Positions 29,351-33,835 of a stretch of DNA of 33,835 nt are shown in pieces; the first letter of the stretch is position 1, and each line of letters opens with the position of its first letter. The notes under the pieces were generated by a model. That model was not told the DNA's origin. It made no database searches and saw nothing but the letters and a program-made list of their open reading frames with translations. The translations under genes and the position numbers were made by a program. The stretch lies in assembly GCA_016872495.1 (NCBI GenBank), contig VGZT01000025.1, positions 1-33,835 on the forward strand. The letters are read 5' to 3'. The stretch comes from SAR202 cluster bacterium. GTDB taxonomy: Bacteria > Chloroflexota > Dehalococcoidia > Lucifugimonadales > Lucifugimonadaceae.

Positions 29351-30148
29351 TCAGCGGAGGCGCGGGCCACTGCCGGGCACGACGATCAGTCCGCCGCGGC
29401 CCGGGTGTTCGAGTACGACGGCCTCGACGCCGAACGAGTCGCGTATCGAGTCCCGTGTCAACACCGCAGATGCCGCGCCGGCCGCCCTGATGGACCCGGC
29501 GCTCATGATCGCCAACTCGTCGCAGTACTGCGCCGCGAGCGTGAGGTCATGCATGGCGGCTACCACCGTAAGCGGCCGCTCCCTCATCACCTCAAGCAAA
29601 GTGTTCATCACGGCAACCTGCACCCCGATGTCGAGGTGGGTGGTCGGTTCGTCCAGCAGCAGAACCGACGATCTCTGCGCCAGGGCGCGCGCAATGAAAA
29701 TGCGCTGGCGCTCGCCGCCCGACAGCGACTCGATAGGCCTCCCCGCCAGGTGGCGAGTATTCGTAAGTTCCATCGCCTCGAGCGCGCTGTCGAAGTCCCG
29801 GCGCCCTTCCCATTGCAGCAGGCCGAGGTGTGGATTTCTGCCCATGAGGACGACTTCGCCGGCGGTGAAGCCCTCCGGGACTACCGGCGTCTGAGCGACC
29901 GACGCGATCATCAAGGCCCGCTGCCGGTTGCCCATGTCCCGGACGTCGACTCCCCCCACCAGCACACGGCCCCTCGCCGGCGTCAACGAACCGGCGATTG
30001 CCCGGAGGAGGGTCGTCTTGCCTGCGCCATTCGGGCCTACGAGTCCGAAAATCCGGCCCGGCGCGGCGGTCAGAGAAACGTCGCCGAGGACGCGCACCCC
30101 CCCAACAACCACCGACACTCCCTGCACCTCAACCTGAAGGGCGGTCAC
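29351..30148 (-). CDS. btuD: Vitamin B12 ABC importer, ATPase
   Basis: 265 residues from a GTG at 30148 whose GTGA overlaps the permease stop. Motifs: Walker A GPNGAGKTT, Q-loop ASVAQTPVVPEGF, signature LSGGERQRIFIARALAQ, Walker B VLLLDEPTTHLDIG, H-loop AAMHDLTLAAQYCD. It belongs to the FecE/BtuD/FepC ATPase group that drives uptake of metal chelates and cobalamin. Assignment to B12 comes from the cobalamin riboswitch heading the operon. Together with the lipoprotein and permease it forms a complete type II importer. It is the last gene of the operon. Confidence 0.9.
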   Translation of the reverse strand: MTALQVEVQGVSVVVGGVRVLGDVSLTAAPGRIFGLVGPNGAGKTTLLRAIAGSLTPARGRVLVGGVDVRDMGNRQRALMIASVAQTPVVPEGFTAGEVVLMGRNPHLGLLQWEGRRDFDSALEAMELTNTRHLAGRPIESLSGGERQRIFIARALAQRSSVLLLDEPTTHLDIGVQVAVMNTLLEVMRERPLTVVAAMHDLTLAAQYCDELAIMSAGSIRAAGAASAVLTRDSIRDSFGVEAVVLEHPGRGGLIVVPGSGPRLR

Positions 30149-31251
30149 GAGATAGCCCTCCGCCGCATCAGCAGGTAAATGAAGAATGGCGCGCCACACA
30201 TGGCCGTTATCAGCCCGACAGGGAGCTCGCTCGGGGCCGCGGCGGTCCTGGCAACCAGGTCGGCCAGGATAAGAAACGTCGCGCCAGCGAGCGCGGCCAG
30301 CGGGAGCAGCACCCGGTAGTCGCGACCCCAGACAAGGCGCACCGCGTGCGGCGCGATGAGCCCGACGAACCCGATCAGCCCGCTCACCGACACCGCTGCC
30401 GCGGTAGTGAGGGTCGCCAGAACGATCAGCACGACCTTCGTGCGCTCGACGTTGACACCCAACTGCCTGGCCTCGTCCTCATCGATCTGCATCACGTTCA
30501 GGACGCGCCCGTGGGCGATCATCCCGGCGGCGCCCACGAGGAGGTATGGAATCACGACCCTGACCTCGTCCCAGCCCGCGCCCACGAAACCGCCGAACAA
30601 CCAGCCAAGCAACGGGCGTACGTCGGGACTGGCCCGGATCATCAGCAACCCCGTGAATCCGCCTGCGAGCGAACTGATGGCGACGCCAGCCAGGATCAGC
30701 GTCGTGAGCGAGATCCCGCCCGCTCGCTTCGAGACCAGGTAGGCCGCCGTGACCGCCAACGTCGCCCCGGCGAACGCTGCGATCGGCAGAAGGCTGACGC
30801 CGCCCAGGTTCGACGGCACACTTGTGATCAGCACGATCGTTGCGCCCAGGCCCGCCCCGCCGGCCACGCCAATCAGGTAAGGGTCGGCGAGGGGGTTTCT
30901 AAACAGCCCCTGGTATGTGCCGCCCGACAGTGCAAGCGCCGCCCCCACCAGCGCCGCCAGGACGATACGCGGCAGCCGCAGTTGCCAGACGATCGTGTCC
31001 CACGTTTCTGGATAGGTCAGGTGCAGATCCACGAACGGCAGGTGGTTGACCACGATCGTCGCGGCAGCTGCAGGCGGTACCTGCACGGCGCCGGTCGCGA
31101 CCGCAAGCAGGGCGGCCAGCGCCAGCACACCCAGTCCTGTGCCGATCCGCAGTAGCAGCCGCCCTGGATCAGCAACGCTTCTTGAAAGCCAAACGCGAGC
31201 GTCGCCCGGCGCAACCTTCGTGGGGTCTAGAACCGGTCTGGATACAGACAC
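30145..31251 (-). CDS. btuC: Vitamin B12 ABC importer, FecCD/BtuC-type permease
   Basis: 368 residues with about 10 predicted membrane helices. Family blocks include LRLPRIVLAALVGAALALSG, then GLFRNPLADPYLIGVAGGAG, AISSLAGGFTGLLM, LGWLFGGF, and SGLIGFVGLIAPHAVRLVWG near the end, with the cytoplasmic coupling loop between. A 34-residue N-terminal extension precedes the first helix. The GTG start at 31251 lies inside the last 25 nt of the lipoprotein gene, so translation is coupled. It forms the transmembrane dimer of the importer with BtuD. Confidence 0.92.
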   Translation of the reverse strand: MSVSRPVLDPTKVAPGDARVWLSRSVADPGRLLLRIGTGLGVLALAALLAVATGAVQVPPAAAATIVVNHLPFVDLHLTYPETWDTIVWQLRLPRIVLAALVGAALALSGGTYQGLFRNPLADPYLIGVAGGAGLGATIVLITSVPSNLGGVSLLPIAAFAGATLAVTAAYLVSKRAGGISLTTLILAGVAISSLAGGFTGLLMIRASPDVRPLLGWLFGGFVGAGWDEVRVVIPYLLVGAAGMIAHGRVLNVMQIDEDEARQLGVNVERTKVVLIVLATLTTAAAVSVSGLIGFVGLIAPHAVRLVWGRDYRVLLPLAALAGATFLILADLVARTAAAPSELPVGLITAMCGAPFFIYLLMRRRAIS

Positions 31252-32153
31252 TTCGCGGCCTCAATGATTCCGTCGACCAGGCGAGTGCCCGCGACGCTCA
31301 ACTTGGCCCCGTCAACCTCGCAGACGCGTCCATTTCTCACGGCCGGGACGGCGGCAAAGGCAGGATCGCTCCGCCACGCCGCGGCTCCACCCGGATGGAC
31401 GCTAATGATGACCTCCGGGCCGCGCTCCACGATCTCTTCCGCACTGACCTGCCGGGCGCCTGAGATGTCCGCAAACGTGTTCTTCGCGCCCAGGAGATTG
31501 AAGATCTCGTCGGCCAGCGAGCCCTCCCCAAGGGTCCAGAGCCCGGGGGCTACATCCTGGTAGACCTTCACAGGACCTCCCGCGCCGTTGGCCCTGGCCC
31601 TGATGTCCGCCAGCGAGGCTTCAAAGCCCGCTGCCAGCGCCTCGCCGGACGCAGGATCACCAGTGATCCTGCCCCACATCCGCATCTGCTCTGCAGCCTG
31701 CTCGAACTTCGCCGGCGACTCCAGATACAGGACCGGAACCTGTAGACCGCGCAGCTCGGGCAAGAAACGGTCGAAGAATATGAAGACCAGGTCCGGCTTG
31801 AGCCCGACGATCTGCTCGAGGTTCATATCGAAGGCGTTCCCAACCCGTGGAATCGACGCCGCCTCAGCCGGGTAATCGACAAACGAGTGGGTCGCCGCGA
31901 CGCGCCGCTCTTGCCCCAGCGCGAACAGGATCTCGACCGCCGCCGAGTCCATGGCTACGATCCGTTCAGGCGGGCCCGTGAAAGTGACCGCGACACCGTC
32001 TCCGCCGATCACCTGGATCGGCCACGGGCTCGGGGTCGCAGAGGGTGCCCGGGTCAGCGTCGCTTGGGGGACTGCAGCGGGCTGTGACGACGAACAAGCA
32101 ATCGATAGAAGTAATGCAAGCGCTGGAACAGTGGCGGCGACAAGCTTGAAAAT
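31227..32153 (-). CDS. btuF: Vitamin B12-binding lipoprotein (BtuF-like), probable ATT start
   Basis: A periplasmic-binding domain of the BtuF/FepB type: PPERIVAMDSAAVEILFALG, VGNAFDMNLEQIVGLKPDLV, ISGARQVSAEEIVERGPEVI and RLVDGIIEAAKCLYP. The earliest standard start in frame is GTG at 32012, but that would remove the secretion signal. Upstream the same frame codes for KLVAATVPALALLLSIAC (lipoprotein signal and Cys), then SSSQPAAVPQ and a Thr/Ser/Pro-rich linker. No ATG, GTG or TTG precedes the signal in frame. An ATT at 32151-32153 has GGAG 7 nt upstream and is proposed as start (308 residues). Alternatively the ATG at 32193, one base out of frame, was connected by an indel; the frame after it codes for RGPRKTARRSSSIF, a good basic signal n-region. 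Confidence 0.85.
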   Translation of the reverse strand: MFKLVAATVPALALLLSIACSSSQPAAVPQATLTRAPSATPSPWPIQVIGGDGVAVTFTGPPERIVAMDSAAVEILFALGQERRVAATHSFVDYPAEAASIPRVGNAFDMNLEQIVGLKPDLVFIFFDRFLPELRGLQVPVLYLESPAKFEQAAEQMRMWGRITGDPASGEALAAGFEASLADIRARANGAGGPVKVYQDVAPGLWTLGEGSLADEIFNLLGAKNTFADISGARQVSAEEIVERGPEVIISVHPGGAAAWRSDPAFAAVPAVRNGRVCEVDGAKLSVAGTRLVDGIIEAAKCLYPDRF

Positions 32154-32238: not shown

Positions 32239-32301
32239 CCAGGAGGCCTCGGCTCGAACCGGATCGAGCCGAAAGGGCCGCCCTGTTCTGCGCAGAGCTT
32301 T

Positions 32302-32486
32302 GCCTCGTCCTCCCGGCAGGTCTCCTGACTTCCGGATCAACACCCGCCGGCATACCTTCCCGCCCTGAACTTCAGGACAGTGGTATTGATCGCCTTGGGC
32401 TACCCGGTCACAGTGGCGCGACCGCAGCGGATTCACACCGCTTTCCCGTCTTCGTCCCGACCAGATCGGGACACCAGGGAGGCCGT
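32302..32486 (-). promoter_or_regulatory. Cobalamin (B12) riboswitch
   Basis: Read on the minus strand the segment carries the hallmark elements in order: GGGAAAGCGGTGTGAATCCG, the core box CGCCACTGTGACCGGG, and the closing B12 box GGAAGTCAGGAGACCTGCC. These are conserved in cobalamin riboswitches. About 65 nt further on is an intrinsic terminator, then the lipoprotein, permease and ATPase genes. High B12 would be expected to turn the uptake operon off by attenuation. Confidence 0.95.
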
Positions 32487-32507
32487 ATTCGGTTGTAGAA
32501 CGCTTTC

Positions 32508-32547: not shown

Positions 32548-33237
32548 CTAACCGCGTGCGGCGCTCGGCAGTCGCGGCCCGGAAACGTACTGGCAGCAGG
32601 CGTCGCCCCTCGTGATGCAGCTCTCCCGCCTGACTTTCGTGCCAAGTATCCCCTTGAGCAGCGCCGTGTCGTAACTGCACACCGCCTCGGTCGCGAGCGC
32701 CACCGACCTGAACGGGCAGTTGCTAAGGGCGAATCGCAGGCCACCGGGAACCCGCTCAACGGCTGGCTTGAAGTCAAGTTCCCTCAAGGCATTCAACGCG
32801 GCCTCCACGGGGTCGCTCTGGCTCCCGGTGGCAAACGCGCTGGCAGAGCGCGCGCCCAGGCGGCTCAGCGCCAGATCCAGCAACTGCTGCCCGTCCCGAT
32901 CGACCAGGTCCGAACCTGGCATCGCGGCCAGTTCCTTCATCAGCCCGGCCAGCAAGGTGTCGTACGCCTTCGGCTGGGACTCATGGCCACGGTCGGTGAG
33001 GAAGAACGAGTGCTCAGGGCGCCCGGTGCCTTTCCGGATCTCGGTGAAAGCCACCAGGCCGTCCCGTTGCAGGATATCGAGGTGGCGCCTGACCGTGGCC
33101 GGCGCAAGACCAAGCTGGCGCGACAGTCCGCCGACGGTTTCTTGCCGTCGCTGCTGGACGATCTGCAGGATTCGCTCTCTGGTCGATTGCATCTTTGGGT
33201 AGCCCGTTCCGGTCCGCGGTGCCTCGACGGTTTCCAT
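32548..33237 (-). CDS. SufR-like HTH regulator with Fe-S cysteine domain
   Basis: 229 residues from the ATG at 33237; an ATG at 33192 (QSTRERILQIV) is an alternative. The N-terminus is a DeoR/ArsR-like winged helix (TVGGLSRQLGLAPATVRRHL, then DILQRDGLVAFTEIRKGTG and PEHSFFLTDRG). The C-terminal domain has spaced cysteines in SNCPFRSVALATEAVCSYD and RESCITRGDACCQY, as in SufR, which binds a 4Fe-4S cluster and represses suf genes. It therefore probably senses iron-sulfur or redox state. No suf genes are nearby. It is divergent from the histone-like gene; a perfect palindrome overlaps its predicted -10 box, consistent with autorepression. The promoter of the B12 operon abuts its 3' end. Confidence 0.85.
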   Translation of the reverse strand: METVEAPRTGTGYPKMQSTRERILQIVQQRRQETVGGLSRQLGLAPATVRRHLDILQRDGLVAFTEIRKGTGRPEHSFFLTDRGHESQPKAYDTLLAGLMKELAAMPGSDLVDRDGQQLLDLALSRLGARSASAFATGSQSDPVEAALNALRELDFKPAVERVPGGLRFALSNCPFRSVALATEAVCSYDTALLKGILGTKVRRESCITRGDACCQYVSGPRLPSAARG

Positions 33238-33240
33238 CAC

Positions 33241-33272
33241 TTTAGTGCTAAAACAGCATTTTATGCATAAAA
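33241..33272. promoter_or_regulatory. Palindromic operator in the divergent intergenic region
   Basis: TTTTATGCATAAAA (33259-33272) is a perfect 14-bp palindrome, and TTTAGTGCTAAA (33241-33252) is a second inverted repeat (TTTAG/CTAAA) with centre spacing of about 19 nt. The region is much more AT-rich than its surroundings. The 14-mer overlaps the -10 box of the leftward regulator and lies 2 nt from the -35 box of the rightward gene, so a dimer bound here could control both. Confidence 0.65.
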
Positions 33273-33285
33273 CATTGACTGAAAA
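33258..33285 (-). promoter_or_regulatory. Predicted promoter of the Fe-S regulator gene
   Basis: On the minus strand TTTTCA (33285-33280) and TAAAAT (33263-33258) are spaced by 16 nt, giving a transcript start near 33250 and a very short leader. The -10 box is shared with the palindrome. Confidence 0.5.
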
Positions 33286-33303
33286 CGTATTCTCAGCTAT
33301 GAT
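33275..33303 (+). promoter_or_regulatory. Strong sigma70-type promoter of the histone-like gene
   Basis: TTGACT (33275-33280) and TATGAT (33298-33303) are separated by exactly 17 nt; each box matches 5 of 6 consensus bases. It overlaps the -35 box of the divergent regulator promoter by one base. The leader to the start codon at 33363 is about 50 nt. Confidence 0.75.
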
Positions 33304-33362
33304 TCAAAGCTGACGCGACCGCACTACGCGGCCCCGAACGTCTAATCACGAAAAGGTGATAA

Positions 33363-33835
33363 ATGCCTGCTCGCACGAAGAAAATCCAGCGACCTGCGGC
33401 TGATCGAGCCAGGCGATCTCCGGCGCCAGCTGCGCCCGCCAGGTCGGCGACAAAGGCCCGCAAGTCACCGACTCCGCCGAAGCCGGCCGCTCGTGTCGCG
33501 GCGCCCCAGGCGAAACCCGCTGCCATCAAACGACCGGCCGCAAGGCCGAAGGCCGCACCGACCGCCAGGCGTACCGCTGCGAAACCCGCGCCCGCACCGT
33601 CCCGGCGACCCGCGCCCAGGGCCGCCCCGGCCGTCGCAAAACGGCCGGCCAGGAAGGTTGAGCCGGCGACCCCTCGACGCACCACGCCCAGGGCCGCCCC
33701 GGCCGTCGCAAAACGGCCGGCCAGGAAGGTTGAGCCGGCGACCCCTCGACGCACCACGCCCAGAACCGCCCCGGCCGTCGCAAAACGGCCGGCCAGGAAG
33801 GTTGAGCCGGCGACCCCTCGACGCACCACGCCCAG
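33363..33835 (+). CDS. Histone H1-like Lys/Arg/Pro/Ala-rich repeat protein (partial, runs off right edge)
   Basis: The ATG at 33363 has AAGGTGAT upstream and a strong promoter before it; the frame is open to the window end (157 codons). The protein begins MPARTKKIQRPAADRARRSP and is almost wholly Ala, Pro, Lys and Arg, like bacterial histone H1-like proteins, AlgP and the tails of some HU proteins. From 33618 it becomes a 24-residue tandem repeat (AVAKRPARKVEPATPRRTTP is its core). Such proteins bind DNA or RNA non-specifically and compact nucleoids. No folded domain is seen yet; one could follow beyond the edge. The opposite strand is also open because of the repeats but has no start signals. 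Confidence 0.82.
   Translation, partial: MPARTKKIQRPAADRARRSPAPAAPARSATKARKSPTPPKPAARVAAPQAKPAAIKRPAARPKAAPTARRTAAKPAPAPSRRPAPRAAPAVAKRPARKVEPATPRRTTPRAAPAVAKRPARKVEPATPRRTTPRTAPAVAKRPARKVEPATPRRTTP
33618..33833 (+). repeat. 72-bp tandem repeat, three units, in the histone-like gene
   Basis: Units start at 33618, 33690 and 33762, and a fourth begins at 33834 at the edge. The units are nearly identical in DNA; the third unit starts AGAACC where the others have AGGGCC. The 72-bp period keeps the frame (24 codons), and the near identity implies recent expansion or conversion. Confidence 0.95.

Follow-up and report, generated by a model that had tools for sequence, protein, structure and literature searches.

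SufR is known mainly as a regulator of Fe-S assembly. The Synechocystis protein (sll0088) is an autoregulator whose gene is divergent from its target, sufBCDS (PMC7058544). Rv1460 of Mycobacterium tuberculosis requires C203, C216 and C244 for function, and ChIP-seq gave a peak for this protein upstream of lsr2, which encodes a nucleoid protein; overexpression left lsr2 mRNA unchanged (PMC6034842). ArnR of Corynebacterium glutamicum is a [4Fe-4S] regulator with a TRAPPC3-like sensory domain (PMC12343034). Our literature search returned no paper joining SufR and Chloroflexota in the sense of a retargeted regulator. Here we analysed a 33,835-nt stretch of DNA from a SAR202 cluster bacterium (the window), in which a SufR-like regulator gene is divergent from a gene for a putative zinc-ribbon protein (Table 1).

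The regulator ORF (32548-33240, minus strand) is open to a GTG at 33240 in the ORF listing. The ATG at 33192 is the likelier start because the alignment of relatives begins at the corresponding residue, M17, and because residues 1-16 are predicted to be disordered (AlphaFold pLDDT <50); from this start the regulator is probably 214 aa long. The SufR profile TIGR02702 matched the protein with 52.1 bits over profile positions 1-207 of 208, far under the equivalog cut-off of 178.8 bits, which none of the sampled Chloroflexota genomes passed. All 36 members of the regulator group matched this profile. The whole-length homology and the N-terminal winged helix, seen with HTH_5 and in the structural model, are those of a SufR-type protein, and C175, C188 and C216, with the Cx12Cx27C spacing of SufR, were kept in 36/36 aligned regulators. 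The SufR-like regulator proposed in a sequence-only reading is supported, and it has the three cluster-ligand positions. On the basis of this spacing and by analogy with known SufR proteins, the regulator probably binds a [4Fe-4S] cluster via C175, C188 and C216.

Table 1. Features of the divergent locus (positions in the window)
Feature	Position	Strand	Basis or remark
SufR-like regulator	32548..33192	-	TIGR02702, 52 bits; likely start ATG 33192
C-terminal sensory domain with C175, C188, C216	32581..32766	-	Cys invariant in 36/36
Codons of C175; C188; C216	32716..32718; 32677..32679; 32593..32595	-	
Winged-helix DNA-binding domain, residues 19-64	33049..33186	-	Pfam HTH_5 1.2e-9, over cut-off; AlphaFold model
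Operator candidate	33251..33269	.	genus alignment and shared motif
Conserved block AAACAGCATTYTATG	33251..33265		upstream of rightward -35
Dyad GCAT-TTT-ATGC	33256..33266		
Regulator promoter-like site TTTTCA-16-TAAAAT	33258..33285	-	promoter scan
Perfect palindrome TTTTATGCATAAAA	33259..33272	.	covers leftward -10; ends 2 bp before rightward -35
Partner promoter-like site TTGACT-17-TATGAT	33275..33303	+	promoter scan
5' part of zinc-ribbon partner gene, A/P/R/K-rich tail	33363..33835	+	continues on C35 to L002:500
72-bp tandem repeat, 24-aa unit	33613..33835	+	assembly breaks here

The regulator model consists of a winged helix-turn-helix, a long helix and a C-terminal domain that resembled TRAPPC3/V4R-type folds in structure comparison. 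Its fold matches include TRAPPC3, which is zinc-bound in 7YH2/7YH3 (PMC12343034), and the phenol sensor PoxR, while Pfam V4R and ATC_hydrolase matched weakly. Such a domain might bind a small molecule, or Zn2+ via the cysteines, instead of an Fe-S cluster, and zinc control would suit a zinc-ribbon partner. We regard this as unlikely, as the x12/x27 cysteine spacing is exactly that of Rv1460, alignment with the SufR profile spans its full length, and the sensory domain of ArnR, which has the same fold likeness, binds [4Fe-4S] (PMC12343034). Between the regulator and a transport gene set lies a cobalamin riboswitch (RF00174, 113.7 bits, 32298-32494, minus strand). This set encodes a substrate-binding protein (31227-32012), a FecCD-type permease (30145-31251) and an ATPase (29351-30199), and is consistent with B12 uptake.

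The rightward ORF had been described as histone H1-like and leaving the contig, and it is indeed an A/P/R/K-rich ORF that runs off the contig inside the tandem repeat. The contig extension suggested at the time was achieved with contig C35 of the same assembly, which begins with a 127-nt stretch identical to the end of the window and keeps the frame. With the smallest C25/C35 joint the partner has 281 aa, hence at least 281 aa in total. Its C-terminus, completed on C35, consists of CVHQWVIEPPNGPTSQGKCRICGESRSFRNS plus a short tail, a predicted zinc ribbon that could not be seen in the window; cofE lies downstream on C35 in convergent orientation. Pfam and NCBIfam gave no match for either the H1-like part or its continuation on C35.

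Alignment of 28 partners revealed an invariant C-x-H-x-W, G, S, G, C-x2-C-G, F, N and W, including four putative metal ligands (C-x-H ... C-x2-C) in 28/28. The predicted core is a small three-stranded beta ribbon (strands 38-62, pLDDT ~90). Among these 28 members, Pfam DUF5817 matched four weakly and ZnF_RZ matched one. A Foldseek search with the zinc ribbon found no match at E <= 0.001, and weak likeness to the XPA, RNase P and RNA polymerase ribbons was discarded as unusable for function.

The H1-like tail behaved differently from this core. In the window it comprises 218 residues with a net charge of +49 (A26/P21/R16/K11 percent; R > K), and is basic, A/P/K-rich and repetitive like AlgP-type tails. 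Partners in the same genus and in some nearby genera also have strongly basic tails, and tails like that of the window occur in L074, L075, L077 and L085. Most distant-family partners are only 77-105 aa long and usually neutral or acidic, so we consider the tail a lineage-specific embellishment; it is a repeat-expanded, disordered, basic extension of the zinc-ribbon protein and may bind nucleic acid.

These results bear on the proposal that production of a histone H1-like, DNA-compacting protein is under an Fe-S or redox regulator, so that redox state would tune nucleoid packing. AlgP-type tails bind DNA (PMC9239181), and the Rv1460 ChIP-seq peak at lsr2 (PMC6034842) already hints that a SufR protein can act on a nucleoid-protein gene. 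The link, which the sequence-only reading did not know to be described, is thus not wholly new, although lsr2 mRNA did not respond to Rv1460 overexpression. Most of the orthologous partners that keep the regulator have a tail that is absent or acidic, only the zinc ribbon being invariant, and an R/P-rich repeat under repeat expansion is typical of a disordered linker. Given this lack of conservation of the H1-like tail, we find no support for redox-controlled DNA compaction as the conserved function and give this proposal very little credence. The view that the product is essentially DNA-compacting is not supported by the comparison; what is conserved in the partner is a small zinc-ribbon protein.

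The gene pair, which the sequence-only reading had suggested looking for in relatives, is conserved across the order, so the refuting outcome named there for the pair did not occur. The set comprised 55 loci of the Chloroflexota type, the window among them; in 50 the sequence reached 600 bp or more beyond the regulator towards the partner. The zinc-ribbon gene was divergent from the regulator in 39 of these 50 Dehalococcoidia/SAR202-type loci, as well as in the window through C35. In the other 11 the regulator adjoined cofE (six loci), sufC-sufB (L108 and L110) or neither of these (L105, L113 and L154). The zinc-ribbon family occurs in 203/250 genomes of the order and the regulator in 51/250. 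Being far more widespread, the zinc-ribbon gene does not need the regulator.

As cofE was present in 32/50 loci, mostly in the same orientation as the regulator, and directly adjoins it in six loci without the zinc-ribbon gene, the regulator might instead serve mainly F420 or other redox metabolism together with cofE, acting via distant sites, with the zinc-ribbon gene as a bystander. This seems improbable, since the regulator is faced by the 3' end of cofE rather than by its promoter, and the arrangement of divergent promoters speaks for the zinc-ribbon gene. In addition, the zinc-ribbon/cofE pair persists in genomes lacking the regulator, so the cofE linkage may just mirror the history of the zinc ribbon.

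The zinc-ribbon gene was found in at least three settings: by cofE, flanked by genes for citrate synthase and for a MidA-like methyltransferase, and close to a gene for a 355-aa protein; the names citrate synthase, MidA and Rex as used here come from reading the sequences. The citrate synthase setting holds a second paralog, in the row citrate synthase/zinc ribbon/MidA-like methyltransferase (L182-L184, L187, L191-L197, L217-L221 and others), with Rex upstream in several loci (L182, L219, L229, L233). Members of a third group (L199, L200, L206, L207, L212, L214) come after a conserved protein of 353-370 aa that carries the motif W(or Y)EQGWTDGLPVVP. In L188 (G058:C1 ~304887-305078) a Rex-type redox repressor replaces the SufR-like regulator and is divergent from the zinc-ribbon gene by cofE, which weakly favours a redox-linked role of the zinc ribbon over DNA packing. 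A degenerate regulator remnant with four stop codons lies beside an intact zinc-ribbon gene at G022:C96:8020-8322 (minus strand), and the regulator was apparently lost there while its partner was kept.

A promoter scan identified one intergenic site per strand, two in 1.8 kb compared to 0.1 expected from shuffles. Both promoters and the palindrome, on the leftward -10 and beside the rightward -35, were located as the sequence-only reading had described them. An equivalent rightward promoter was present in most relatives, and the position of the window's regulator promoter is not homologous to that of the relatives' regulator promoters. The probability of finding such a palindromic site in the window by chance was ~0.08 with 3 mismatches allowed, and there was no second copy of TTTTATGCATAAAA within 2 mismatches in the 2.34-Mb genome. 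The exact 14-bp palindrome was rejected as a conserved operator because it is absent in both same-genus relatives; its right arm was not conserved in the genus alignment.

Relatives were compared through the spacers between their divergent -35 boxes. Opposed -35 boxes were recognised, and spacers delimited by hand, in 20 loci, the leftward box of the window by alignment only; the boxes are 37-53 bp apart, mostly 43-53. These spacers share an AT-rich motif, GCTTTTTATGCAAA, with a likelihood of 91.6 compared to 43-52 in dinucleotide shuffles. In a leave-one-group-out test the Fisher combined p was ~6e-8 and that of the window 0.01, while several loci failed; we take the motif as moderate evidence because the spacers are hand-delimited and AT-rich. 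Its site in the window, GCATTTTATGCA, lies in the divergent spacer and is the sole perfect site in the genome. The search for exact half-sites across 40 spacers gave none above poly-A/T repeats, and GCAT-N3-ATGC occurred in 3 loci only. As the palindrome overlaps both the conserved block and the shared motif, the earlier suggestion of a shared operator is partly supported, for this region but not for the exact palindrome. The leftward promoter overlaps the motif site in the window and is on the far side of the spacer in relatives, which makes the -10 overlap a local peculiarity. Three loci of one genus (L157, L158, L168) have a longer inverted repeat, GATTTCGTCTT ... AAGACGAAATC, flanking the partner's -35, with the AAGACGAAATC arm in the partner's -35/-10 spacer; this arm by itself is also present in L101, L156 and L159.

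We constructed a quick, midpoint-rooted tree of the regulator group and SufR homologs of other Chloroflexota, with rows picked by likeness to the window regulator. Of 30 homologs from other Chloroflexota, 11 had suf genes within ~1.5 kb. The window's group formed one clade apart from these suf-linked SufRs (SH-aLRT 97), at the base of which were L106 and the suf-linked L108 and L110. The regulators of L108 and L110 are directly upstream of sufC-sufB, a placement like that of Rv1460 in the mycobacterial suf operon, and these two basal members were the only ones with suf linkage among 55 relatives. That they still precede sufCB suggests retargeting, and the clade appears from its phylogeny to have descended from suf-operon SufRs and then been retargeted to the zinc-ribbon gene. 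In the host genome the regulator lacks the suf adjacency of SufR: the operon (sufBCDSU) is on another contig, C34, with no regulator gene of this kind beside it, and linkage of the cyanobacterial type was rejected.

The regulator could nevertheless still govern Suf in this genome by acting on sufBCDSU in trans, its neighbour gene being incidental; it is the sole SufR-like protein above noise in the host genome, and the positions of L108 and L110 before sufCB fit such a role. The spacer motif had no match in the 10-kb suf region, the only perfect genomic site being that in the divergent spacer, and 199/250 genomes of the order were without the regulator at the threshold used. We thus view action in trans as quite improbable.

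The interpretation that we favour, by a modest degree, is a conserved two-gene switch of Dehalococcoidia/SAR202-type Chloroflexota, a group of uncultured bacteria, in which a derived [Fe-S] repressor of the SufR type controls its own gene and the zinc-ribbon gene. It builds on the gene pair and its conservation, the cysteines, the promoters, the tree and the spacer motif. By analogy with known SufR proteins (PMC7058544, PMC6034842) we infer the cluster, the DNA binding, the repression as a dimer, the signal and the autoregulation; any biochemical role of the partner is likewise a proposal. A regulator dimer would probably occupy the AT-rich DNA that separates the divergent -35 boxes, thereby repressing both the partner gene and the regulator's own gene. 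Both promoters would be freed once the cluster is lost, oxidised or nitrosylated. In evolutionary terms, a SufR-type clade would have moved from the suf operon to the zinc-ribbon gene. We doubt the stronger claim that this SufR-descended [Fe-S] sensor was rewired away from cluster assembly to a nucleic-acid-binding zinc ribbon, with an H1-like tail in some lineages, such that the amount of a nucleoid- or transcription-associated protein depends directly on Fe-S status. A clade-wide tie to one zinc-ribbon gene would illustrate the retargeting of an Fe-S sensor, and the pairing with a regulator offers an experimental way into an uncharacterised protein family that occurs in most genomes of the order.

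Comparison with described systems places the locus as follows. The window regulator and Synechocystis SufR have in common the winged helix-turn-helix, the C-terminal domain with three cysteines and the divergent gene layout. The target of the cyanobacterial protein is sufBCDS, whereas in the window the divergent gene encodes the zinc ribbon, suf is elsewhere and the score is under the equivalog cut-off. C203/C216/C244 of Rv1460 and C175/C188/C216 of the window regulator have an identical Cx12Cx27C arrangement; however, Rv1460 is the first gene of a suf operon and has no divergent zinc-ribbon gene beside it. ArnR shares the order of winged helix-turn-helix, dimer helix and TRAPPC3-like domain with three cysteines found in the window model, and its targets are also non-suf. 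It differs in its cysteine positions (179/193/223), in controlling narKGHJI and hmp, and in being restricted to Actinobacteria. On the partner side, the tails of Pseudomonas AlgP/PhaF and of the window protein are repeat-rich, disordered, A/P/K-rich and basic (PMC9239181). The AlgP/PhaF tail comes after an alpha-helical domain, whereas that of the window lies N-terminal to a zinc ribbon, contains more R and lacks conservation in orthologs.
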